DNA of 64,000 nucleotides from NCBI RefSeq assembly GCF_024171645.1, contig NZ_JALKAC010000011.1:124001-188000 (forward strand). The letters are read 5' to 3'. The stretch is from Flavobacterium sp. HSC-32F16 (GTDB lineage Bacteria > Bacteroidota > Bacteroidia > Flavobacteriales > Flavobacteriaceae). Below are positions 24,801 through 36,306 of this stretch, piece after piece (positions within the stretch are counted from its first letter, which is position 1; every line of letters starts with the position of its first letter). The notes under the pieces are model-generated. The model saw only the letters and a program-made list of their open reading frames with translations. It searched no databases and was not told the origin of the DNA. The position numbers and the translations under genes were made by a program.

Positions 24801-25043
24801 CAGAACCCCCTTCGGATTAGTGAGTTTAATCTTGTAGCGACCGTCAAAATCTGTAGAAGTTCCGTTCTTTGTTCCTTTCTCCAGTACATTAACTCCAGGC
24901 AAAGAAAGTCCTGCCGCATCTTTAACGGTTCCTTCTATTGTCACAGTCTGAGCATGTACCTGATTGCCCATCAGCAGGCAAAATAAAAAGACAACTGCAA
25001 AGCAACGATTTGCTCCTTTGTTTAATAAATCTTTAAAATTCAT
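21801..25043 (-). CDS. SusC/RagA-family TonB-linked outer-membrane transporter
   Basis: Imports oligosaccharides across the outer membrane with its SusD partner. The 1080-residue product has a signal peptide (1-32, ..QVHAQ), a carboxypeptidase-regulatory-like domain (about 33-108; GTVKDAAGLSLPGVNVLEKG), a TonB-box/plug region (NEVVVIGYGTAKKGDLTGAV, then IRVRGGGSLTQDASPLIIVDGFP) and a barrel. The SusC signature DASSTAIYGSRGANGVILITTK appears near residue 220 (written here only in outline as AIYGSRGANGV). It is the first gene of the unit. Its promoter carries a perfect palindrome (25216-25229). No hybrid two-component or sigma/anti-sigma pair is adjacent. Confidence 0.95.
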   Translation of the reverse strand: MNFKDLLNKGANRCFAVVFLFCLLMGNQVHAQTVTIEGTVKDAAGLSLPGVNVLEKGTKNGTSTDFDGRYKIKLTNPKGVLSFSFIGFTTKDVPATGKTKVDVSLNEDANNLNEVVVIGYGTAKKGDLTGAVSTISGNDLKKVPVANVAEALTGRIAGVQVTSSEGSPDADIKIRVRGGGSLTQDASPLIIVDGFPINSMNDISSSDIETMTVLKDAASTAIYGSRGANGVILITTKSGKDGKIAVNFNMFYGMKTIANEIDVLSPGDYTKWQYEYAMLSQTGTKVASDPTSYTKYFGNWQDQDMYNSLKGNDWQKQIFGRRGEVQSRDLGIRGGTDKLNYNFNYAHYDEKAIMLGSNYKRNNLALALKSKVSNKVDVGFTVRYSDTEIDGGGVNEQNEKSATDSRMRTIVGYAPIPVSGLTSDDVSGDGTDVLINPLRSISDNNRQQFRKNFNMLGSFGWEIADNLKLKVDLGLDTYNSLDYRFYGRSTYYVANTPASTLQGKPAMIITDGKERRFRNANTLNYDFKKIMGENHHLTALIGEESINYEVNTVTSTIHGYPSFFDFNQAKSLTSQGTPQAVDNYYNPDDRLLSFFGRANYDYKNRYILSATFRADGSSKFLSENRWGYFPAFAAGWKISEESFLKGKSWIDLLKVRASYGEAGNNNIPVGQQTQIFQSIPTAWINGVTSVWAIPKTMPNPELKWETTVTQNVGLDFGFFKNRLSGNFDIYKNVTNDLLINFPVPGSGYDFQYRNMGETQNTGFEATINVVAIEKAKYGLNFSFNMGINKNRINSLGVMNNFGAATNWASSQIGDDYLIAVGSSLGTMYGYKNDGRYEVSDFDYVGGKYVLKTGVVSTATTLVGDGSSLKPGDMKLKDVNGDGKVDLTDKTVIGNVNPKSSGGFVINGNAYGFDLMAAFNWSIGNEVYNADKIEFSTATASGQYKNLNSSMADGKRWTNLDPVSGQLVTDPDALAALNANTTMWSPYMRTAVFTDWAVEDASFLRLNTLTLGYTAPEMFTSKLGVSKLRFYMTASNVFVWTNYSGSDPEVSTKRKNPLTPGVDSSPYPRSRQMVFGMNLNF

Positions 25044-25215
25044 GGTTGATTGTTTAAGTTACTAATTGTTTAAAGTGGTTTTTTGTGGTTTAGTTTTTTG
25101 TGTACCGATCCCAATTTTTATTATAAAATTGTAAGTATGGCTTTTTTTTATAAATCTGTGATTTTACCTGATAAAATCACGAAATGTAACGTACAATTTA
25201 ACAATTTTAAAAAGT

Positions 25216-25229
25216 TGTAATCGATTACA
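25216..25229. promoter_or_regulatory. LacI-type operator (perfect 14-bp palindrome) at the susC promoter
   Basis: TGTAATCGATTACA is a perfect palindrome with a central CG, the hallmark of LacI/GalR-family sites. It directly abuts the -7 box on its downstream side, so a bound protein would cover the transcription start. No LacI-family gene is in the window, so the regulator must be encoded elsewhere. Confidence 0.65.
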
Positions 25230-25237
25230 CAAACATA
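25230..25237 (-). promoter_or_regulatory. -7 promoter box for the SusC/SusD unit
   Basis: The minus strand reads TATGTTTG (TAnnTTTG). With the operator directly downstream, the start site should lie inside the palindrome and the 5' leader would be about 180 nt. Confidence 0.6.
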
Positions 25238-25400
25238 GATATTTTTTTGATATAAAAAATTAAAATTCATAAAAATTTCATAAATAAAATTAAATATCAA
25301 AAATAAAAGCGACTTTTTATATGACAAATGTAATTTTATAGATGTATAAATATTAATTATATTATTATAATCATGCAATTCGCTGCGATTTTTCAAAAAA

Positions 25401-25414
25401 AACAATCGATTACA
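25401..25414. promoter_or_regulatory. Partial second copy of the susC operator
   Basis: AACAATCGATTACA keeps the centre ATCGAT and the whole right half TTACA of the first site but differs at three left-half positions. The centres are 185 bp apart, compatible with looping between two sites. Confidence 0.4.
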
Positions 25415-25613
25415 TGGTTACAATTTAAGAATTTTTTAAGTGTATTTTTAACATTTAAAAGTTACTTACGAAAACGATATCAATTTAGATATGCCTTATT
25501 TTTTAACAAGTTTTTATTCTAAAACAGATTTTTGAATATCTCAGCCTGCATTAGAAAAAACTGTATTTTGAATTCATTTAAAAACTTAAACAAACTCTAA
25601 AATAATTTTAGGC

Positions 25614-25643
25614 ACAAAAAAACCCTTAGAAATAATCTAAGGG
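25614..25643 (-). terminator. Rho-independent terminator of the MFS gene
   Basis: An 8-bp stem (25623-25630 with 25636-25643), followed on the minus strand by a run of seven T (complement of 25616-25622). Confidence 0.8.
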
Positions 25644-25671
25644 CTATTACAATATAATTAGTAAACTATTA

Positions 25672-26838
25672 TTATGCTTTTTGAAGCTTTAAGCTGCTTT
25701 TATGCATTTTAATTAGAGTAAGAGTAATAAGCATTCCTATCACCGACATTCCTACACCAATAAGATTTGGTGATGCATAACTATATCCAGCAGTTAGAGG
25801 TAATCCGCCAAGAAAAGCACCCAAAGCGTTTCCGATATTAAAACTTCCCTGAAGCGAAGCAGAAGCAATCATCTCTGCTCCTTTCGCAGTTCGTATCATC
25901 AGCATTTGGATTGGCGCAATAACCGAGAAAGAAATAGCACCCGTTAAGAAAGTCAGAAACAAAGAGACATATTGATTTGATGAAAAGAAATAAACTAATA
26001 TTAAATCAACAGACATTATAAACAGTAATGCTAATGTTGTTGGTGCCGGCGAATATTTATCTGCCAGTTTACCGCCGGCAAAATTTCCAACTACCATTCC
26101 AAGACCCGCCAGAATTAAAATATAAGAAACATCTCCTTCAGCAAATTTTGAAACATTAGTTAACAACGGTGCAATATAACTAATCCAGGCAAATAGACCT
26201 CCAAAACCAATTGCCGTGATTCCAATAATTAACCACGCTTCTGTTCTCTTGAAAAACTCTAGTTGTTTTCTCATATTTACACTTTCGCCTTTTTCTAAAT
26301 TCGGCATCCATAATGAAACAAGCAAAAAGGTAAGCAGACCAACCGCCGCAATTAATACAAAAGTATAACGCCAGATAAAATTATGTCCAATATAAGTTCC
26401 AATAGGAACTCCAATTAAATTAGCAAGTGTAAGTCCCGAAAACATAATAGCAATTGCCTGTGCTTCTTTTCCTTTTTCGGCTAAACGGCTTGCTACTACA
26501 GCACCGACTCCAAAGAAAGCTCCATGCGGTAATCCTGATAAAAATCGGGAAGCGAATAGAAAGTTATACGTTGGCGCAATTATAGACAAAGCATTAAAAA
26601 CTGTCAGCATTGCGGCTAAAATTAAAAGCATTTTTTTAGGCGGAAAATTTCTTCCCAGAATTACTAATAACGGAGCACCGATAACAACTCCAAGTGCATA
26701 AGCAGAAATTAAATATCCCGCAACCGGAATACTAACTTTCATATCTGAAGCAATATCAGGAAGCAGACCCATCATTACAAATTCGGTTATTCCGATAGTT
26801 AAACCCCCGAACGAGAGTGCAATAAGACTTTTTTTCAT
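25672..26838 (-). CDS. MFS transporter of the AraJ/arabinose-efflux type
   Basis: Twelve-helix inner-membrane transporter of 388 residues. The start KKSLIALSFGGLTIGITEFVMMGLLPDIA (abbreviated) with ..GLLPDIA, the A-loop GRNFPPKKMLL, RFLSGLPHGAFFGVGAVVASR and the second-half motif GNFAGGKLADKY are typical of drug:H+ antiporter-1 members such as AraJ and YdhP. Efflux of a sugar, arabinose-like compound or drug is likely, but the substrate is not deducible. It is divergent from an AraC regulator, which probably controls it. A -7 box and an inverted repeat are in the 103-nt shared intergenic region. Confidence 0.88.
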   Translation of the reverse strand: MKKSLIALSFGGLTIGITEFVMMGLLPDIASDMKVSIPVAGYLISAYALGVVIGAPLLVILGRNFPPKKMLLILAAMLTVFNALSIIAPTYNFLFASRFLSGLPHGAFFGVGAVVASRLAEKGKEAQAIAIMFSGLTLANLIGVPIGTYIGHNFIWRYTFVLIAAVGLLTFLLVSLWMPNLEKGESVNMRKQLEFFKRTEAWLIIGITAIGFGGLFAWISYIAPLLTNVSKFAEGDVSYILILAGLGMVVGNFAGGKLADKYSPAPTTLALLFIMSVDLILVYFFSSNQYVSLFLTFLTGAISFSVIAPIQMLMIRTAKGAEMIASASLQGSFNIGNALGAFLGGLPLTAGYSYASPNLIGVGMSVIGMLITLTLIKMHKSSLKLQKA

Positions 26839-26875
26839 TTGATTTTAATAAGAAAGGGAAAGACTTTCTACAGTG

Positions 26876-26883
26876 CAAATTTA
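26876..26883 (-). promoter_or_regulatory. -7 promoter box for the MFS gene
   Basis: The minus strand reads TAAATTTG, 37 nt before the start codon at 26838. Confidence 0.6.
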
Positions 26884-26905
26884 ACACCGTTAAACTTTAA
26901 AAAAA

Positions 26906-26934
26906 TTGTATATTTACAACATAAACTTGTAAAT
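26906..26934. promoter_or_regulatory. Candidate AraC operator with three TTGTA half-sites
   Basis: ATTTACAA (26912-26919) and TTGTAAAT (26927-26934) form a perfect 8-bp inverted repeat with a 7-nt spacer. A third half, TTGTA at 26906-26910, forms another inverted pair with TACAA at 26915-26919. The site lies 8 nt before the AraC start codon and 23 nt upstream of the MFS -7 box, about where its -33 element is expected. Confidence 0.5.
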
Positions 26935-26941
26935 TTAGAAT

Positions 26942-27775
26942 ATGCCAAAATTAAATCAATTCAAAACACTGGTAATTGATGAGTTTGAAGAAGAGAAATT
27001 TCATCTTCCTCCGCATACACATACATATTACGAAATTATCTATATCAAAAAAGGAAGCGGTGTACATCATATAAACAATAACTTATTACATTATAAAGCA
27101 GGTGATTTATTTGTAATTTCTCCAGATGATGAGCATTATTTTGACATTAAAAAAAGTACCCGTTTTATTTTTATCAAGTTTACCGATAATTATTTTAATT
27201 CAAAACAAAACCTTACCTGTGATGAATTTCTAATTCACACACCGGAAAGCTTTATGCGTGACAAGATCTTAAAAGAAACGGTTTTAAAGTTTGGTGAACC
27301 CTGCAAAACCATCTTGAAAAATACAGTTGAAAATATTACAAAATATGATCAATATATTGATGTTACAAATTCGCCTATTGTTTTTTATCAGATTCTATCG
27401 ATTTTTGGACTTATAAAAGAAACTATACGATGTATGAATCTGCAGATGACTTCAACTCATATAGATAATGAACAAATTGCCAATTATATTCACCAAAATA
27501 TCTATCAGCCTAAACTAGTTCAGATTAAAGTTATCGCGAATCATTTTAATATTGCTGAAACCTATTTTAGTGCCTATTTTAAAAGAACATTTTCTATAAG
27601 TTACCGCGAATACATTCATAATTTGCGAACTACTTTAATCGAAAAACGAATTCACAATAACCAGCTTCCAATTAAACAGATTGCTTATGAATTTGGTTTT
27701 ACAGATGAAAGTCATTTATCTAATTATTTCAAAAAAAGAAAAAAAATGAAGCCGACAGATTTCAAGAAAACATAG
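26942..27775 (+). CDS. AraC-family transcriptional regulator (cupin sensor)
   Basis: Regulator of 277 residues. An N-terminal cupin (about 15-90; FHLPPHTHTYYEIIYIKKGSG, abbreviated; GDLFVISPDDEHYFD) is followed by a linker and the AraC double helix-turn-helix (about 180-277; KVIANHFNIAETYFSAYFKR, IKQIAYEFGFTDESHLSNYF). The His-rich HTHTYYE strand is usual for sugar-sensing cupins. It is divergent from the MFS exporter, the probable target. It ends 69 nt before the copper island, but its cupin does not suggest metal control of that island. Confidence 0.88.
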   Translation: MPKLNQFKTLVIDEFEEEKFHLPPHTHTYYEIIYIKKGSGVHHINNNLLHYKAGDLFVISPDDEHYFDIKKSTRFIFIKFTDNYFNSKQNLTCDEFLIHTPESFMRDKILKETVLKFGEPCKTILKNTVENITKYDQYIDVTNSPIVFYQILSIFGLIKETIRCMNLQMTSTHIDNEQIANYIHQNIYQPKLVQIKVIANHFNIAETYFSAYFKRTFSISYREYIHNLRTTLIEKRIHNNQLPIKQIAYEFGFTDESHLSNYFKKRKKMKPTDFKKT

Positions 27776-27817
27776 TTTTGAAATCTTAAATTAATAGCTG
27801 CTGTTAAAAAAAATCTA

Positions 27818-27825
27818 TAAATTTG
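27818..27825 (+). promoter_or_regulatory. -7 promoter box for the Cys-rich protein (copper island)
   Basis: TAAATTTG (TAnnTTTG), 19 nt before the proposed TTG start. The ten bases AAATTTGCAT recur upstream of copA (29745-29754), where the box is degenerate (GAAATTTG). Confidence 0.55.
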
Positions 27826-27844
27826 CATCTCTAAAGCATTTTCA

Positions 27845-28219
27845 TTGACGAAAAAAATTCACATAGTATTCTTCATTCTAACAATTGGTCTCTCTTTGAT
27901 GTCCAATTCAGGTTATGCATGCGGAAAATCTTCTGAGAAAATGTCTTGCGAAAAAAAAACAAACCCTTCTAATTCTTGTCAAAAAGACTGCTGCCAAAAA
28001 AGTCAGGATTCAAAAAAAGATCAACACGGCTGCAAGGGAAAATGCGATCATTCCAGCTGTACAACAACCGCTTTACAGTTTAGTTTGATTGCTATAAATG
28101 AGTTTGAATTCGAAAATAATCTCTTTAATTTCTCTACTGAGAAATCTATATCTTATTACAAAACCGCCAGTATTTCTGATGGCTTTACCTCTATTTGGTT
28201 AATCCCTAAAATAAAGTAA
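27845..28219 (+). CDS. Cys-rich exported protein of the copper island
   Basis: A 124-residue protein with a signal peptide (about 1-25, ..SNSGYAC). Residues 26-72 hold eleven or so cysteines in a Lys/Ser-rich setting (KMSCEKK, SCQKDCCQK, HGCKGKCDHSSC), fit for binding soft metals such as Cu(I). The last 50 residues are Cys-free. No ATG gives a complete signal peptide: ATG near 27899 would cut it, so a TTG start at 27845 is proposed. A -7 box sits 19 nt upstream. It is the first gene of the copper island; a periplasmic metal-buffer role is inference. Confidence 0.65.
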   Translation: MTKKIHIVFFILTIGLSLMSNSGYACGKSSEKMSCEKKTNPSNSCQKDCCQKSQDSKKDQHGCKGKCDHSSCTTTALQFSLIAINEFEFENNLFNFSTEKSISYYKTASISDGFTSIWLIPKIK

Positions 28220-28250
28220 TTCTACTTCTGACAGCCATAATTCCGTCGAG

Positions 28251-28300
28251 TTTAACCGCAAAGTTCGCGATGATTTACGCAACGTTCGCAAAGTTTTTTT
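28251..28300. repeat. Intergenic repeat of the CCGCAAAG/TTCGCAAAG family
   Basis: TTTAACCGCAAAGTTCGCGA...TTTACGCAACGTTCGCAAAG. The same building blocks (AACCGCAAAG, TTTACGCAA, GTTCGCAAAG) recur at 29473-29677 and, more weakly, at 61440-61478. Confidence 0.7.
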
Positions 28301-28371
28301 TTTGCGATGGACAAACAAAAAATTAAATTTAATATGGGAATTTGAATTCCTCCTTAATAAAACTACCTAAA

Positions 28372-28902
28372 ATGAAAAACTCAATATCAACTATAGCCGC
28401 AATAATCACATTATTATTTACTGCAAATTCTATTCAGGCAAATACAATAAAAACAACAGAAACAGGAACTGAAATCGCTGATTCAAGTCAGTTACAATCT
28501 GTCTATGATGCCTATTTTGTTGTAAAAGATGCATTAATTAAAAGCGATGCAAAATTAACTTCGGCGAAAGCCAAAGATTTATTAGACGCAATTACTGCCA
28601 TAAAAATGGATAAATTAAAAACTGACGAACATACTGCCTGGATGAAAGTGGTAAAAAAATTAACTGCCGATGCCAAAAGTATTTCGACTACAACCGATTT
28701 AAAAAAACAACGTGAAACTTTTAAGTCACTTTCTAAAAATACGTATACCTTAATTAAAGTTTCAAAATCAGGCGAAGTTGTTTACAAAAAATATTGCCCA
28801 ATGGCAGATGCTGACTGGTTAAGCAAAGAAAAAGCAGTTAAGAATCCGTATTACGGTTCTTCGATGTTAACTTGCGGAAACGTGGTAGAAACCATCAAAT
28901 AA
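28372..28902 (+). CDS. DUF3347 family periplasmic protein, probable copper binder
   Basis: A 176-residue exported protein (signal peptide 1-23, ..SIQAN). It is an all-helical DUF3347 domain with the family hallmark KYCPMADADWLS near residue 141 and NPYYGSSMLTCGNVVE at the end. The Cys, Met and His/Tyr residues of this hallmark resemble the metal site added to CusB-type efflux adaptors, and DUF3347 proteins are found with copper and cobalt/zinc efflux genes. ATG 28372 gives a clean signal peptide; an upstream TTG (28342) does not. The next gene starts 2 nt after its stop, so both are co-translated. Confidence 0.85.
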   Translation: MKNSISTIAAIITLLFTANSIQANTIKTTETGTEIADSSQLQSVYDAYFVVKDALIKSDAKLTSAKAKDLLDAITAIKMDKLKTDEHTAWMKVVKKLTADAKSISTTTDLKKQRETFKSLSKNTYTLIKVSKSGEVVYKKYCPMADADWLSKEKAVKNPYYGSSMLTCGNVVETIK

Positions 28903-28904
28903 AT

Positions 28905-29465
28905 ATGACGCTCTACATCAAAAATATGGTGTGCGCCCGCTGTAAAATGGTCGTGAAGTCTGAGTTTGAAAAACTTGGACTTCAGACTATTTCTGTTGAA
29001 TTAGGCGAAGTTGAACTGCAAGATGACCTCAACGATTCTCAAAAAGAAGTTTTACTTAAAAACCTGCAGACTTTAGGTTTTGATTTATTGGATGATAAAA
29101 AAACCAAAACCATCGAGAAAATAAAAAATTTAATTATCGATTTGGTCCATCATAAAAACAACGAACTCAAAATTAATTTATCTGATTATTTAGTGGAGAA
29201 TCTCAATCAGGATTACAGCACATTGAGTAATCTTTTTTCAGAGATTGAAAATACTACAATTGAAAAATACTTTATCAGTCAGAAAATAGAAAAGGTAAAA
29301 GAATTGTTGATTTATAATGAACTTTCTTTAAGTGAAATCGCTGATCTTTTAAACTACAGCAATGTCGCACATTTGAGTAATCAGTTTAAGAAAATTACGG
29401 GTTTTACACCTACTTATTTCAAGCAGTTGAAAGATAAGAAACGTATTCAGATCGAGAATTTGTAA
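28905..29465 (+). CDS. AraC-type regulator with N-terminal heavy-metal-associated domain
   Basis: A 186-residue regulator that joins a heavy-metal-associated (HMA) fold (about 1-65; MTLYIKNMVCARCKMVV, CXXC at Cys10/Cys13) to an AraC helix-turn-helix (about 85-180; NLNQDYSTLSNLFSEIE, SLSEIADLLNYSNVAHLSNQF, GFTPTYFKQLK). The CXXC loop should bind Cu(I) or a similar soft metal, so the protein is a plausible copper sensor for the island. It is encoded between DUF3347 and copA. ATG 28905 directly follows the DUF3347 stop; the in-frame TTG upstream would overlap that gene. Metal response is inference from domain content. Confidence 0.85.
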   Translation: MTLYIKNMVCARCKMVVKSEFEKLGLQTISVELGEVELQDDLNDSQKEVLLKNLQTLGFDLLDDKKTKTIEKIKNLIIDLVHHKNNELKINLSDYLVENLNQDYSTLSNLFSEIENTTIEKYFISQKIEKVKELLIYNELSLSEIADLLNYSNVAHLSNQFKKITGFTPTYFKQLKDKKRIQIENL

Positions 29466-29472
29466 TTTTTTT

Positions 29473-29677
29473 TTAACCGCAAAGGTTTACGCAAGGTTCG
29501 CAAAGACTTTTAGCCACAGATTAGAAGGATTAAAAAGATTTTAAAAATCTGTGTTAATTTTTTTAATCTGTGGCTATTTTTTTAAACCATAAATAAAGCT
29601 TTGCGAACTGTTTAATTTATTAATTAAACAAAAAACTTAGCGTGCTTTGCGTAAACCTTTGCGCTCTTTGCGGTTAA
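29473..29677. repeat. Nested intergenic inverted repeat (two repeat families)
   Basis: Outer arms TTAACCGCAAAGGTTTACGC (from 29473) and the matching GCGTAAACCTTTGCGCTCTT.. (ending CGGTTAA at 29677) enclose an inner perfect 13-bp inverted repeat TAGCCACAGATTA (29511-29523) / TAATCTGTGGCTA (29564-29576). It fills the 313-nt gap before copA. A transcript could fold into one long two-tier hairpin. Confidence 0.8.
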
Positions 29678-29778
29678 ACAACTTTTAGTAAATATTACAA
29701 ATCATTCTCAAAATTGTACAAACCGTTGTAGATCTTACTTCGGAAATTTGCATTGTAATACCTTAAAACGAAAAAACA

Positions 29779-32310
29779 ATGACTCATCAATATATAATTT
29801 CCGGAATGTCATGCAACGGCTGTCGCAGTAAAGTCGAAAAAACACTAAATGAAGTTGGAGGAATTCACGCCGAAGTAACTTTAGACCCGCCATTGGCAAC
29901 CATAACAATGGAAAAACATATTCCGACAGAAAAATTTCAGGAAGTTTTATCTGCTGCAGGGAAATATACTATTGAAATGGATTCTCCAAAAAAAAGCGAA
30001 TCTCAAGGAAAATCATGTTGTTCAGGTCACAAAAAAGAACATCATTCAGCTCATCATCACAAAAAAGAAAAAACGGTAATTCCTCATAATGCAACGGGAG
30101 TTTTTTATTGCCCAATGCATTGCGAAGGTGATAAAACCTATAATAAACCAGGAGACTGTCCGGTTTGTGGAATGGATTTAGTGCCCCAAATAGCCATTGG
30201 AACACAATTTACCTGTCCAATGCATCCAGAAGTTATTTCTAATGAGGCCGGCGATTGTCCAATCTGTGGAATGGATTTAGTACCGATGCAGGCCTCTGAA
30301 TCTGAAGAAAACAAAACTTATACCGACTTATTAAAGAAAATGAAGCTTGCGACATTGTTTACGCTTCCTATTTTCATTATTTCAATGTCGGAAATGATTC
30401 CTGATAATCCGCTTTTTAAAATCATGTCAATTGAAAAATGGAACTGGGTTCAGTTTCTATTTTCAATTCCGGTTTTGTTTTATGCCGGATGGATGTTTTT
30501 TACCCGCGCCTGGAAATCGATTATTACCTGGAATCTAAATATGTTTACCTTAATTGGTATTGGAACCAGCGTTGCATTTTTATTTAGCATTGCGGGAATG
30601 TTTTTTCCAGATCTTTTTCCGTCCGAATTCAAATCGCATCACGGAACCATTCATCTTTATTTTGAAGCAGCAACCGTCATTATAACTTTAGTTTTATTGG
30701 GACAATTATTAGAAGCCAAAGCGCACGGACAAACCAATGGCGCAATTAAAGCATTACTAAAATTAGCGCCAACCGAAGCCACTTTGGTAGAAAACGGAAC
30801 TGACAGAACCATCTCAATTCACGATATTAAAAAAGGAAATTTACTACGAGTAAAACCGGGAGAAAAAATTCCGGTTGACGGAAAAATAACTTCTGGCGAA
30901 AGCAATATTGATGAAGCTATGATTACCGGAGAACCAATTCCGGTTGATAAAAAAACGGGCGATACTGTAATTTCGGGAACTATAAACGGGACAAAATCAT
31001 TTGTTATGATTGCCGAAAAAGTAGGTTCAGAAACGTTGCTTTCGCAGATTATACAAATGGTAAATGATGCCAGCCGTTCGAGAGCGCCAATTCAAAAACT
31101 GGCAGACCGTGTTGCAAAATATTTTGTTCCAACGGTTGTTGGTATTGCTTTATTGACTTTTATTATCTGGGCAAAATTTGGCCCTGAACCTTCTTATATA
31201 TATGGATTAATAAATGCGATTGCCGTTTTAATTATTGCCTGTCCTTGTGCTTTAGGATTGGCAACTCCAATGTCGGTTATGGTGGGCGTTGGAAAAGGTG
31301 CCCAGCATGGAATTTTAATCAAAAATGCCGAAGCACTCGAAAACATGAATAAAATTGATGTTTTAATTACCGATAAAACCGGAACGATAACAGAAGGAAA
31401 ACCAACTGTCGAGAAAATTTATGCGATCGATAATAACGAGGATTTTCTATTGCAGAAAATTGCTTCGCTAAACCAATACAGCGAACATCCTTTGGCGCAA
31501 GCCGTTGTCAATTTTGCCAAAGACAAAAATCAGTCTTTACTTGAAGTTCCGGATTTTGAAGCCGCTGCCGGAAAAGGAGTTTTAGGAACCGTAAATAATT
31601 CAAAAATTGCATTAGGAAATAAAAAACTAATGGAACAGATTAATGCTTCGGTTTCTGATGATTTTGAAAGCAAAATTACAGCCGAACAAAATCTTGGAAA
31701 AACGGTTTCATACATTGCGGTAAACAATGTTATTTCGGGCTACGTAACCATAACAGATGCTATAAAAGTAAACAGTGCCAAAGCGATTAAAGATTTAATT
31801 GATCAGGGCGTTGAAGTGATCATGCTTACGGGAGATAATAAAAATACAGCCAAAGCGGTGGCCGATAAGCTTCATTTAAGTTCTTTTAAAGCCGATTGTC
31901 TTCCAGAAGATAAACTAAGAGAAATTGAACGTTTGCAGGCCGAAGGAAAAGTGGTGGCGATGGCCGGCGACGGAATCAACGATGCGCCTGCTCTAGCCAA
32001 AGCGGATATTGGAATTGCAATGGGAACGGGAACTGATGTTGCTATTGAAAGTGCCAAAATAACGCTTGTAAAAGGAGATTTAAATGGAATTGTAAAAGCT
32101 AAAAAACTGAGCTTTTCGGTGATGAAAAACATTAAGCAAAACCTGTTTTTTGCCTTTATCTACAATGTTTTGGGAGTTCCAATTGCAGCAGGGATTTTAT
32201 ATCCGGTATTCGGAATTTTGCTTTCGCCGATGTTAGCCGCGCTGGCGATGAGTTTAAGTTCGGTTTCGGTAATTGTGAATGCTTTGCGATTGCGAAATCT
32301 AAACCTTTAA
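29779..32310 (+). CDS. copA: Copper-exporting P1B-type ATPase
   Basis: ATP-driven exporter of Cu(I), 843 residues, inner membrane. Domains in order: HMA (1-70, ISGMSCNGC with CXXC at 12/15), a His-rich linker ([17 protein letters not shown]), two heavy-metal-binding [16 protein letters not shown] repeats (about 109-137 and 144-172), eight membrane helices, the actuator (MITGEP), the CPC ion site ACPCALG (Cys488/Cys490), the phosphorylated Asp532 in DKTGTIT, the HP motif SEHPLAQA and the hinge [11 protein letters not shown]. The N-terminal pair of metal-binding repeats is common in Bacteroidota. The oxidase gene follows 9 nt later, so both form an operon. The metal could also be Ag(I). Confidence 0.95.
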
Positions 32311-32319
32311 AAAATCAAT

Positions 32320-34557
32320 ATGAAACTACATACTTTTTTAATTGTCTTTTTAATTGCTTTGGGTGCAAAAGCCCAAAAAGTAGTTCGTTACGATTTACAC
32401 GTTCGGGATACAATTGTCAATTTTTCGGGAAAAGAAAAACGTGCGCTTACCGTAAACGGACAAATTCCGATGCCTATATTGACTTTTACAGAAGGTGATA
32501 TTGCGGAGATTTATGTCCATAATGATTTAAAAAATGAAGATACTGCCTTGCATTGGCACGGATTATTTCTTCCGAATAAAGAAGACGGTGTTCCGTATTT
32601 AACGCAAATGCCTATTAAACCCGGAACAACACATAAATATAGTTTCCCGATTATTCAGAACGGAACATATTGGTATCACAGTCATTCGGGATTGCAGGAA
32701 CAAATTGGTTTATACGGACTTTTCATTATCAATAAAAAGAAAGACGATTCGACTTTTAGAAAAGGCATTGACGATTTGCCAACCGTTCCGGTTATTTTAA
32801 GTGAATGGACGGATCTTAAACCGGAAAATGTGCAGCGAATGCTTCATAATGCCAACGATTGGTTTGCCATAAAAAAAGGCACAACACAAAGTTATTCCGA
32901 AGCAATCAAGAAAGGGCAATTCTCTACAAAAGTCACCAACGAATGGAAACGTATGAATGCCATGGACGTGAGTGATGTTTATTATGAAAAGTTTTTAATT
33001 AACGGAAAAAATGAAGATCAGCTTTCACAGTTTAAAGCCGGAGATAAAGTTCGATTGAGAATTGCAAACGGAGGCGCTTCGAGTTATTTCTGGCTGACGT
33101 ATGGCGGAGGAAAAATAACGGTTGTAGCCAGTGATGGAAACGACGTTGAACCTGTAGAAGTCGACCGTTTGATTATTGCCGTTTCTGAAACTTATGATAT
33201 TGTCGTTACGATTCCTGAAGATAAAAAATCCTTTGCTTTTTTGGCTACAGCCGAAGACAGAACCGGATCTGCTTCTTTATATTTAGGGGAAGGAACTAAA
33301 CAATCTGTCAAACATCTTCCCAAATTAAAATATTTCGAAGGGATGAAAATGATGAACGATATGATGAAGATGAATGGCGAAATGAATGATATGGGCATGA
33401 ATATGTCGCTTAACAAAATGGACATGAATGCCGTAATGTATCCTGAAATTTCCGGTGAAGAGGAATCAGCAAAAACAGAAGATCATTCGATGCATACTAT
33501 GGAAGGCATGGAAATGGCAAATGATTCTACGGCAACTTCTGAAGTTGTAACACTGAATTACGGAATGCTCAAATCTCCAACTAAAACAACATTACCAAAA
33601 GATGCTCCGGTAAAAGAATTGCGTTTTACATTATCAGGAAATATGAACCGCTATGTTTGGAGTTTAGACAATAAAGTAGTTTCTGAAACGGATAAAATTT
33701 TAATTAAAAAAGGAGAAAACGTCAGGATTGTATTGTACAACGGATCGATGATGCGTCACCCAATGCATTTGCACGGACATGATTTTAGGATTTTAAACGA
33801 GCATGGCGATTATTCTCCGCTAAAAAACGTGATTGATATTATGCCTATGGAAACCGATACCATCGAATTTCAGGCAAATGCTGATGGCGACTGGTTTTTT
33901 CATTGTCACATTTTATATCATATGATGGCTGGAATGGGACGTATTTTTAGTTATGAAAATTCAGCTCCAAATCCGTTGATTCATCATCCTGAAATGGCTT
34001 ACAAAATGCTAAAAATGGACGATCGTATGTTTCATTTTATGGCAGAAAATGATTTTGCTTCAAACGGAAACGATGGAGAAGCGATGTACAGCAACACGCG
34101 CTGGAGCATTGGAACGGAATGGAGATTAGGTTATAACGACAAACATGGTTATGAAACCGAAACGCATATTGGCCGATACATTGGAAAAAATCAATGGCTA
34201 ATGCCTTTTATTGGTTTTGACTGGCGATACCGTAAAATGGGAATGGACGAACAGGAACAAAATCTTTTTGGGCAAAAGAATACCAAAGATAATCGTTCGG
34301 TTTTCAGCATCGGAGCAGAATATACGTTGCCAATGCTTGTAAAAGCGCAAGTTGAAATGTACACCGATGGAAATGTGAGAATTCAGTTTGAACGAAAAGA
34401 CATTCCGCTTTCCAGACGTTTGCGAATGAATTTAATGTGGAATACGGATAAAGAATATATGGCGGGATTGAAATATGTGGCTGGTAGAAATTTTGGAATC
34501 ACAACACATTATGACAGCGATATGGGAATTGGATTTGGGGTTAATTTGAATTATTAA
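32320..34557 (+). CDS. Multicopper oxidase with CopB-like C-terminal domain
   Basis: Exported protein of 745 residues, signal peptide 1-18. Residues 25-560 form a CopA-type multicopper oxidase: HWHG (78-81), WYHSHSG, the type-1/type-3 cluster HPMHLHGHDF (about 482-490) and HCHILYHMMAGM (about 528-539). A Met-rich insert (about 341-403; MKMMNDMMKMNGEMND) probably binds Cu(I). About 590-745 resembles the outer-membrane protein CopB (WSIGTEWRLGYNDKHGYETE, FIGFDWRYRK, ending VNLNY) rather than oxidase sequence; classic CopA oxidases end near 600 residues. A fused oxidase/outer-membrane protein would detoxify Cu(I) at the outer membrane. Operon with copA. The CopB assignment is by eye. Confidence 0.85.
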   Translation: MKLHTFLIVFLIALGAKAQKVVRYDLHVRDTIVNFSGKEKRALTVNGQIPMPILTFTEGDIAEIYVHNDLKNEDTALHWHGLFLPNKEDGVPYLTQMPIKPGTTHKYSFPIIQNGTYWYHSHSGLQEQIGLYGLFIINKKKDDSTFRKGIDDLPTVPVILSEWTDLKPENVQRMLHNANDWFAIKKGTTQSYSEAIKKGQFSTKVTNEWKRMNAMDVSDVYYEKFLINGKNEDQLSQFKAGDKVRLRIANGGASSYFWLTYGGGKITVVASDGNDVEPVEVDRLIIAVSETYDIVVTIPEDKKSFAFLATAEDRTGSASLYLGEGTKQSVKHLPKLKYFEGMKMMNDMMKMNGEMNDMGMNMSLNKMDMNAVMYPEISGEEESAKTEDHSMHTMEGMEMANDSTATSEVVTLNYGMLKSPTKTTLPKDAPVKELRFTLSGNMNRYVWSLDNKVVSETDKILIKKGENVRIVLYNGSMMRHPMHLHGHDFRILNEHGDYSPLKNVIDIMPMETDTIEFQANADGDWFFHCHILYHMMAGMGRIFSYENSAPNPLIHHPEMAYKMLKMDDRMFHFMAENDFASNGNDGEAMYSNTRWSIGTEWRLGYNDKHGYETETHIGRYIGKNQWLMPFIGFDWRYRKMGMDEQEQNLFGQKNTKDNRSVFSIGAEYTLPMLVKAQVEMYTDGNVRIQFERKDIPLSRRLRMNLMWNTDKEYMAGLKYVAGRNFGITTHYDSDMGIGFGVNLNY

Positions 34558-34566
34558 AAAAGTATA

Positions 34567-34706
34567 GTCCCTACGGGACATTTCGGGATTGTGTTTTTTT
34601 TTACCAATATTAAACTCCTGGCTTAGTATTTACTAGATAAATATTTCGTAGAGATAAAATATTGATAAATAGAAATAGCCAGCATTTAAAATTGTCCCGT
34701 AGAGAC
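34567..34706. repeat. Inverted repeat GTCCCTACGGGAC / GTCCCGTAGAGAC
   Basis: GTCCCTACGGGAC (34567-34579) is itself a near palindrome, and GTCCCGTAGAGAC (34694-34706) is its inverted partner. Between them lies an AT-rich 115-nt stretch. This motif type is a known-looking dispersed flavobacterial intergenic element. It follows the oxidase gene and may also act as its terminator. Confidence 0.55.
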
Positions 34707-34762
34707 TTTATAAGCATTAGCATATTAACTTATCGTTGACAATTTTCAAAGCTAAATCCTAC

Positions 34763-34770
34763 TATATTTG
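34763..34770 (+). promoter_or_regulatory. -7 promoter box for the 52-aa Cys/Lys-rich peptide
   Basis: TATATTTG, 56 nt before the ATG at 34827; an upstream TTGAC at 34736 may contribute. Confidence 0.55.
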
Positions 34771-34826
34771 AAACTACATCTTCAATCAAAAAAAGAAAAA
34801 TACCTAACAATTAAATTATACAAAGA

Positions 34827-34985
34827 ATGAAAAAATTATTTACTGTTTTAGCTATTACTTTATTTACAATTGGTCTGCAAGCGCAAGACACAAAGCCAGC
34901 TCCAAAAAAGGAAAAAGCTAAAAAAGAATCATGTTGTAAAAAAACAGATGACAAAAAAGACAAAAAATGCTGCGCTAAAAAATAA
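34827..34985 (+). CDS. Exported 52-aa Lys/Cys-rich peptide
   Basis: A 52-codon gene from ATG 34827 to TAA 34983-34985. The first 20 residues are a good signal peptide (MKKLFTVLAITLFTIGLQAQ). The mature part is very basic with two vicinal cysteine pairs, KKESCCKKTDD and DKKCCAKK, fit for binding Cu(I) or other thiophilic metals. It has its own -7 box (34763) and a terminator 22 nt after the stop, which supports a real transcript. It directly follows the copper genes and probably belongs to the same response; that link is inference. I do not recognise a named family. Confidence 0.75.
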   Translation: MKKLFTVLAITLFTIGLQAQDTKPAPKKEKAKKESCCKKTDDKKDKKCCAKK

Positions 34986-35005
34986 TTGCAGCATATGTTA
35001 AATGC

Positions 35006-35040
35006 AAAAGGCTTCAAAATATTTGAAGCCTTTTTTATGT
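35006..35040 (+). terminator. Rho-independent terminator of the 52-aa peptide gene
   Basis: A 13-bp stem (35006-35018 with 35022-35034) with a short loop and a T-run. Confidence 0.85.
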
Positions 35041-35048
35041 TTTTTCTT

Positions 35049-35134
35049 TTTGCCGTGAATTTCAAGAATTTCCACGAATTATTTTTTTAATTCAAACTCA
35101 AAAATTTGTGGAAATTCTTGAAATTCGCGGCAAA
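35049..35134. repeat. Inverted repeat TTTGCCGTGAATTTC... / ...GAAATTCGCGGCAAA
   Basis: Arms 35049-35080 and 35103-35134 pair over about 30 nt with few mismatches. The arms share words (AATTTC, CACGAATT, AAATTCGC/TGGC) with the repeats at 58030-58143, 58881-59006 and 62542-62599. Confidence 0.8.
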
Positions 35135-35139
35135 AAAAC

Positions 35140-35592
35140 CTATTTCAATCTAACACTCCATTCAAAATCCATTTCAGAAACCTGCACACCTTCTTCGTTA
35201 GTTCCTATAGATTTCATCCAGAAAGTCTGTCCCTCGCCTGTTTCGATTGTATTCTTGACAGCATCGGCAATTAAGTGTCCATCGTTACAAACGAAAGTAA
35301 TTCTGCCTGTTGCTTTTTTAGTGAAGTTTCCTTTATTATTGGCTACCAGCATTGAGATTTTTTTACCGCTTTGCTGAATCTGCGAAATAACCAAAGCACC
35401 GGTTGTTAATTCTGCTGCCATTGCCTGCACCGCGAAATACATCGAATTAAAGGGATTTTGATTAATCCAGCGGTGTTTTACGCTTACTATACATCTGTCA
35501 TTGTCGATTGCTTTTACACGCACGCCGCAAAAGTATGCCGACGGCAATTTAAATAATACAAATTTGTTGAGTTTGGATACAGATATTGCCAT
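35140..35592 (-). CDS. DUF4442 hotdog-fold protein (thioesterase-like)
   Basis: A 150-residue cytoplasmic protein of the DUF4442 family, a hotdog-fold group related to acyl-CoA thioesterases. Features are the helix SVSKLNKFVLFKLPSAYFCG, the strand VSVKHRWINQNPFNSMYFAV with NPFNSMY at the start of the hot-dog helix, AAELTTGALVISQI, and strands GRITFVCNDGH and EEGVQVSEMDFEWSVR. A catalytic residue is not obvious. ATG at 35592 (MAISVSK) was chosen over an upstream codon at 35679 that adds 29 residues outside the family. Confidence 0.75.
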   Translation of the reverse strand: MAISVSKLNKFVLFKLPSAYFCGVRVKAIDNDRCIVSVKHRWINQNPFNSMYFAVQAMAAELTTGALVISQIQQSGKKISMLVANNKGNFTKKATGRITFVCNDGHLIADAVKNTIETGEGQTFWMKSIGTNEEGVQVSEMDFEWSVRLK

Positions 35593-35787
35593 GTGATATG
35601 TTTTTTTATGTAAAAATACAAAAAAACTATGCGTGCACAATAAATTGATAATACTTTCTGAAAGCACCAACAAAATCAATACTTACGAATGATTTTCAAC
35701 TATTTAAACCTTGATATCCAATTTTAATTTTGTTAAAATTATGTTAATATTTGGTACTATGCAAAACAAGATACTGTCTTTTAGATA

Positions 35788-35795
35788 TATATTTG
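35788..35795 (+). promoter_or_regulatory. -7 promoter box for the DUF4870 gene
   Basis: TATATTTG, 28 nt before ATG 35824. Confidence 0.6.
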
Positions 35796-35823
35796 CATAA
35801 GAAATTACTATATACTTTTAATC

Positions 35824-36306
35824 ATGCAATCAACAACACCACTAATCATGGAAAAATCATCAGAAAAGAATACTTCGGCATTCACACATTTAAGCGTATT
35901 AAGTCAATATATTATACCGTTTGGGAATTATATTTTCCCAGTCATAATCTGGTCAAGCTACAAAGACAAATCAGAGTTTGTAGATCATCACGGAAAACAA
36001 GCTTTGAACTTTCAGTTAAGTTTATTGCTTTACACGTTAATCTTAGCTTTAATCGCAATCCCGGTTTTTGTTACGGTTTTTTTACAAAACCTTCCAATCG
36101 AAGCTGTTTTTAATGACAATGAAGATTTCTACATCAGAAATTTCAATTTTGAGGGAAACATTGGCCTTTTAAGTATTGGAGCTACGGCAGTAGTACTTTT
36201 TGGACTTTTAAAATTTGTTGAATTCTTTTTAGTGATTTATGCTTCGATAAAAGCTTCAAACGGAGAATTATACAAATATCCGCTAACGATTTCTTTTATA
36301 AAGTAA
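35824..36306 (+). CDS. DUF4870 family membrane protein
   Basis: A 160-residue inner-membrane protein. DUF4870 features: HLSVLSQYIIPFGNYIFPVIIW, KDKSEFVDHHGKQALNFQLSLLLY, and late helices LLKFVEFFLVIYASIKASNGELYKYP. About four membrane helices (25-45, 65-95, 115-140). The family is widespread and of unknown function. ATG 35824 and 35848 are both possible; the former is kept. A CRP-like or PadR link is not seen, but the envelope-type PspC cluster is the next on the same strand. Confidence 0.85.
   Translation: MQSTTPLIMEKSSEKNTSAFTHLSVLSQYIIPFGNYIFPVIIWSSYKDKSEFVDHHGKQALNFQLSLLLYTLILALIAIPVFVTVFLQNLPIEAVFNDNEDFYIRNFNFEGNIGLLSIGATAVVLFGLLKFVEFFLVIYASIKASNGELYKYPLTISFIK

Follow-up and report, generated by a model that had tools for sequence, protein, structure and literature searches.

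The locus analysed here raises the question of how expression of copA, which encodes a P1B-type ATPase, could follow cytoplasmic copper in a Flavobacterium, and whether the small AraC-type protein encoded in front of it might be the sensor. Cytoplasmic copper sensing in Bacteroidota seems unsettled: the main text of a genome study of Bizionia argentinensis reports MerR and CopY-like proteins without copper sites, suggests ArsR-SmtB candidates, and uses the word "AraC" 0 times (PMC11213822). Based on the 64,000-nucleotide stretch of Flavobacterium sp. HSC-32F16 under study (the window; features in Table 1) and on comparison with related loci, it is rather likely that the regulator acts as a one-component cytoplasmic sensor of Cu(I), possibly also of Ag(I), and as a transcription activator of copA. 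Having a named regulator, a cysteine pair, an operator, and a promoter spacing makes the question of copper sensing directly testable, and the regulator together with its operator could yield a compact copper biosensor part for Bacteroidota.

Table 1. Features of the regulator–copA locus, in window coordinates.
Feature	Position	Strand	Basis or details
Cys-rich ORF, putative signal peptide (by eye)	27845..28219	+	ORF list
DUF3347 protein ORF, immediately before the regulator	28342..28902	+	ORF list, Pfam
AraC-HMA regulator gene, 186 aa	28905..29465	+	ORF, domain search, AlphaFold2 model
HMA-like domain (residues 1-63), beta-alpha-beta-beta-alpha-beta	28905..29093	+	Family profile, AlphaFold2 model, fold search; below Pfam cut-off alone
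MVCARC motif, M8-x-C10-x-x-C13, presumed metal site	28926..28943	+	Sequence, conservation
AraC-type DNA-binding domain, two helix-turn-helix units (residues 65-178)	29097..29438	+	Pfam, model, fold search
Inverted repeats between regulator and candidate operator, related to stretch 28250-28303	29469..29681	+	
Candidate operator, direct repeat AATATTACAA-N11-AATTGTACAA, 21-bp period	29691..29721	+	Half-sites 29691-29700 and 29712-29721
-7-like promoter element GAAATTTG (consensus TAnnTTTG)	29743..29750	+	
copA, P1B ATPase with N-terminal HMA, HMBD, and CPC; presumed target	29779..32310	+	Domain search
Multicopper oxidase, downstream of copA	32320..34557	+	Domain search

The preliminary description of this DNA proposed that an HMA domain with a CXXC motif and an AraC domain are joined in one 186-residue protein next to copA, and each of these points is borne out: the AraC domain lies above its cut-off, the HMA domain is recognised by the family profile and the AlphaFold2 model, the cysteines are C10 and C13 within MVCARC, and copA, which carries CPC, starts 313 bases downstream. 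The ATG of the regulator lies 2 bases past the stop of the DUF3347 ORF, with which it is probably co-transcribed; an alternative start, TTG at 28872, is possible.

As for the DNA-binding half, Pfam reports HTH_18 with 48.4 bits (cut-off 33.6) and HTH_AraC with 33.6 bits (cut-off 26.6), and HTH_18 is reached at E 0.01 by 111/111 family members taken singly. The AlphaFold2 model (mean pLDDT 90.6, pTM 0.81) places seven helices at residues 65-177, and AraC domains match the model with VIA-align Z up to 15.2. Having a C-terminal AraC helix-turn-helix domain above the family cut-off, the protein belongs to the AraC/XylS regulators, and it has in common with AraC, MarA, SoxS, and Rns the seven-helix domain with two helix-turn-helix units. 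The sensor of those regulators is a cupin or another small-molecule pocket, whereas here it is an HMA-like ferredoxin fold.

Regarding this N-terminal half, the match of the regulator itself to HMA (PF00403) has 18.1 bits and E 0.0036, under the Pfam gathering cut-off of 24.8, and 11/111 family members reach HMA singly at E 0.01. Searching with a profile of these 111 sequences retrieves solved HMA domains, namely those of Bacillus subtilis CopA (1p6t, 2.4e-6, positions 3-63) and CopZ (6ff2, 1.1e-4, positions 3-62), and the AlphaFold2 model has HMA topology at residues 2-62. According to VIA-align, residues 1-63 resemble GolB, Atx1, and CopZ (Z 7.4-7.9), although other folds score equally well (prephenate dehydratase 8.2, AcuB 7.4, and homoserine dehydrogenase 7.3) and, by the tool's own warning, Z below 8 may reflect a common arrangement. 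Because of these equal scores the fold comparison alone does not single out HMA, so the predicted assignment rests on the profile search and on MxCxxC, with the topology in agreement. The N-terminal unit combines the beta-alpha-beta-beta-alpha-beta fold and the MxCxxC motif, and it is homologous to HMA domains of known structure. The chaperones CopZ, Atx1, and GolB and the HMA domains of CopA share fold and motif, and the regulator differs from them in its fused DNA-binding domain.

The pair itself is widely kept. When 231 members (loci L038-L257) are typed by the alignment columns of C10 and C13, 184 have CxxC, 43 have SxxC, and 4 have other residues, while M8 is conserved in 227/231. In loci L221 and L225 the motif takes the form MACESCK, beside a transporter resembling ChrA by eye, a gene present as a fragment in L233.

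The 140 loci L118-L257 were hand-picked from similarity-ranked lists of matches to the window protein and are not a random sample, with several loci from one genome, some ended by contig edges, and distances taken between stop-to-stop frames; among them a P1B ATPase lies within 5 kb of 61/104 CxxC members vs 3/43 SxxC members, and within 1 kb of 51/104 vs 0/43. Where a P1B gene lies this close to a CxxC member (61 cases within 5 kb), it is on the same strand in 59, downstream in 57, and of the CPC type in 55. Counting P1B, HMA, multicopper oxidase, or RND genes on the same strand within 4 kb gives 77/104 for CxxC, 6/43 for SxxC, and 0/4 for other members, so that 27/104 CxxC members lack a neighbour of these types. 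Among the nearer loci (L038-L117), 78/80 have such a neighbour and 62/80 a P1B ATPase. The gap between the regulator and the P1B or HMA gene, measured between stop-to-stop frames, is below 100 bases in 46 of the 68 CxxC loci with such a gene downstream. As for the other neighbours, 72 ORFs similar to the Cys-rich ORF form a cluster in the compared loci, and Rfam gives no match at gathering scores in 25000-36000.

The CxxC/SxxC label requires 5 changes, 2 of which are forced by starred branches, on a tree that uses just the DNA-binding domain and has 147 rows, few columns, and numerous forks left unresolved. With just 2–5 changes, the CxxC/SxxC contrast is phylogenetically clustered and does not represent many independent events; the difference in neighbours is therefore in effect one between clades, and Fisher values overstate it. 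The metal-neighbour label turns over often, since 25 changes are needed on the same tree.

These neighbours also bear on what the cysteines may bind. The CPC type of the neighbouring ATPases (55/61) is what suggests copper, and the recurrence of multicopper oxidase (9/104) and RND genes (16/104) near CxxC members points the same way. CxxC pairs are generally able to form disulfides, and a thiol/redox switch, or a sensor of another soft metal such as Hg, Ag, or Zn, would also suit the 5/61 members near a CPH or SPC type and the ChrA-like neighbours of L221 and L225 (by eye); considering the predominance of CPC, we regard it as distinctly unlikely. Still further from the evidence, and very improbable, is an HMA-like domain that is metal-free and serves dimerisation alone, in a stress regulator that lies near copA by chance. 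Such a role would fit the SxxC and NxxC relatives, in which the domain persists without the cysteine pair and which apparently act on different genes; against it stand CxxC in 184/231 members, the recurrent metal neighbours, and a candidate operator before an efflux gene.

The candidate operator has the consensus AATnTTRCAA-N11-AATTnTRCAA. Aligned upstream of copA, the window and 62 near-relative loci, mostly Flavobacterium, share AAT.TT[AG]CAAATCA....CAAAATT.T[AG]CAA, and in one clade A to G changes are paired across both half-sites. The repeat is found within 5 mismatches in 59/63 copA upstream regions, which together hold 24 distinct sites. The window contains one match at up to 3 mismatches, 29691-29721, and 100 shuffles of it contain none. 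The short half-site pattern alone gave 15 window matches vs 14.9 expected and was dropped for the full repeat. Two AraC domains would read the two half-sites, an arrangement supported by comparison, and the 21-bp period is, we assume, like that of araI1-I2, the direct repeat bound by AraC.

Within the genus, the strict form of the site occurs 15 times in 9/41 genomes (the reversed control pattern 0 times) and is missing in 24 of the 33 genomes with a homologue. Of these sites, 9/15 precede copA or an HMA gene, all 9 on the same strand downstream of the homologue, and 4/15 precede a TonB-dependent receptor. For the receptor of the own genome (L278 5424-7583, G000:C4), the copA-type site lies 66 bases before the ATG, and such a site before this type of receptor is also found in 3 other genus genomes. 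The secreted protein encoded downstream of the own-genome receptor has no Pfam family, and a secreted protein resembling it by eye follows another strict site (L290, 1/15). A third strict own-genome site (L295, G000:C4:391223-391249; 1/15) lies before a secreted protein resembling endonuclease I by eye. The looser repeat was rejected as a definition of the copper regulon, since 303 own-genome matches at up to 3 mismatches vs 188 for the control make it too unspecific.

Outside the genus, a matrix of the 24 distinct sites, used without retraining and scanned around the regulator stop, exceeds 6 bits in 19/94 CxxC loci, where 100 rounds of shuffling average 0.19 with a maximum of 3 and the other strand gives 1, and in 1/37 SxxC loci (shuffle mean 0.09), leaving 75/94 CxxC loci not above this threshold. 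A gene follows 18 of the CxxC matches, and in 12 of these cases the match ends 40-70 bases ahead of the ATG. The retrained matrix is passed by 68/104 CxxC loci vs 8.4 expected, but this count is partly circular and the unretrained one is preferred; for the SxxC loci the retrained matrix drifted into coding sequence and was discarded.

The candidate operator stands at a fixed distance from the -7 promoter box. PMC9723704 gives the sigma-A -7 box of Flavobacterium as TAnnTTTG, and in the window 25 bases separate the operator end from TTTG, one base nearer than the commonest spacing. TTTG lies 25-27 bp past the site in 58/59 near-relative promoters and in 40/68 of the CxxC loci that pass the retrained matrix, for which the bases downstream of the site are outside the matrix (shuffle mean 0.87, largest 5 in 1000). 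The 22 bases between the site and the -7 box have no strong consensus and no conserved -33 element. A direct repeat conserved before the efflux gene at such a fixed promoter distance lends independent support to a regulatory link to copA.

The direction of this control is the point at which a repressor has to be weighed. AraC-domain proteins are mostly activators, and the missing -33 element is what would be expected of activator-dependent promoters. A Cu(I)-responsive repressor of copA, whose apo form would cover the -33 region and whose metal-bound form would release it, is also compatible with an operator beside the position that we take to be that of the -33 box, and known copper regulators such as CsoR and CopY do work by derepression; even so, we consider repression here unlikely. 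According to the preferred scheme, activation, the HMA-like domain would take Cu(I) through C10 and C13, and this uptake would change how two protomers are seated on the DNA. Because the downstream half-site lies about where the -33 box would be, the bound dimer may recruit sigma-A RNA polymerase, which would switch on the CopA pump. In this scheme comparison supports the domains, the motif, the context, the conserved site, and the fixed promoter spacing; that the protein binds Cu(I), occupies the operator, and activates copA is what we infer.

In comparison with established copper sensors, the regulator presumably shares a job with CueR, CsoR, and CopY, namely matching copA expression to cytoplasmic Cu(I), but the folds of these proteins are unrelated to the HMA-AraC architecture. 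CueR (TIGR02044) is absent from the best 25 of the 27 NCBIfam families that the regulator matches at E 1, and CsoR (PF02583, Trns_repr_metal) from its 6 Pfam families at E 1. Among the alternative sensors, CsoR and CueR were covered in genomes. CsoR is found in 0/21 relatives, and CueR above cut-off also in 0/21, with some match at E 0.001 in 19/21. The best own-genome match to the CueR model has 67.5 bits vs a cut-off of 147.4; it is a 120-aa frame, a MerR protein by Pfam, and by eye lacks the cysteine pair of CueR, showing a single cysteine close to the C-terminus. Across the phylum, 61/198 genomes have CsoR, with family f78 contributing 43, and 8/61 also have a regulator homologue by a reading of listings; this distribution is confounded by phylogeny and was not taken as proof.

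An AraC-type regulator also serves the copper response of the Yersinia high-pathogenicity island, and we know of no HMA domain in it. PMC8725597 describes that response as siderophore-dependent, with an AraC-linked metal signal. Within the literature on HMA-AraC fusions or Bacteroidota copper regulation that was searched, which left most subscription journals outside, no description of the fusion was recognised, and an AraC-type one-component regulator whose sensor resembles a metallochaperone is apparently an undescribed variant; the candidate operator before copA is a new element, which recurs ahead of efflux genes beyond the genus. The preliminary view that this architecture is much less familiar than other metal sensors therefore stands for searchable papers and fails for genomes, given that 182/395 phylum genomes have a homologue at E 1e-12. 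The corresponding counts are 160/295 for the class at E 1e-8 and 33/41 for the genus at E 1e-20, all three pooling the CxxC and SxxC subfamilies, and the architecture is not rare in the phylum. Flavobacterium johnsoniae strain CI04 is among the bacteria with an orthologue (L042). Plasmids carry it as well: of 29 records with a homologue 25 are listed, and among these 22 are annotated as AraC family or helix-turn-helix, 1 as response regulator, and 2 not at all, with the HMA domain named in 0/25. A P1B ATPase is present in each of the three plasmid stretches inspected, which come from Hymenobacter oligotrophus, Mucilaginibacter robiniae, and a Bernardetia.

The composite of operator and promoter can be followed through the family in the same way. 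At up to 3 mismatches it lies downstream of 44/104 CxxC genes, compared with 0 on the other strand and 0.2 in shuffles, and of 9/43 SxxC genes, compared with 1 and 0; upstream of the regulator the counts are 6/103 and 4/43, respectively. On the plasmids, the match before the P1B ATPase has 0 mismatches in Mucilaginibacter robiniae and 3 in Hymenobacter oligotrophus; no composite promoter is seen in the Bernardetia stretch, where the beginning of the ATPase is missing. With up to 2 mismatches allowed, the own genome holds 59 copies of the pattern vs 15 of the control, which is too unspecific to define a copper regulon, and the broad pattern was rejected for that use. Twelve best own-genome places (L300-L311) were inspected and nine following genes scanned by Pfam: ferritin-like, DUF4142, DUF2383, DUF7218, bestrophin, and glycine-zipper proteins pass the cut-off, two genes have no Pfam match, and one is sub-threshold. 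Since the layout also stands before stress-type genes and in 9/43 SxxC loci, it characterises the family as a whole, and its presence alone does not prove control by copper.

The own genome further encodes a full-length paralogue (L257 7752-8297, G000:C1:1472748-1473287), 42% identical to the regulator, with NxxC instead of CxxC and near small stress-type genes. Stress-type genes with this layout, together with a paralogue lacking the first cysteine, hint at a stress regulon that may be read by the SxxC/NxxC sister subfamily. Taken more broadly, there is about an even chance that HMA-AraC activators form a phylum-wide family and serve many Bacteroidota as their main sensor of cytoplasmic Cu(I), with a direct-repeat operator replacing the -33 element, and that relatives which lost the first cysteine have passed to general-stress control while keeping this promoter architecture. 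An AraC protein of the ordinary kind is present in the window too: a cupin-AraC regulator at 26942-27775, divergent from a transporter that is MFS-type by eye.
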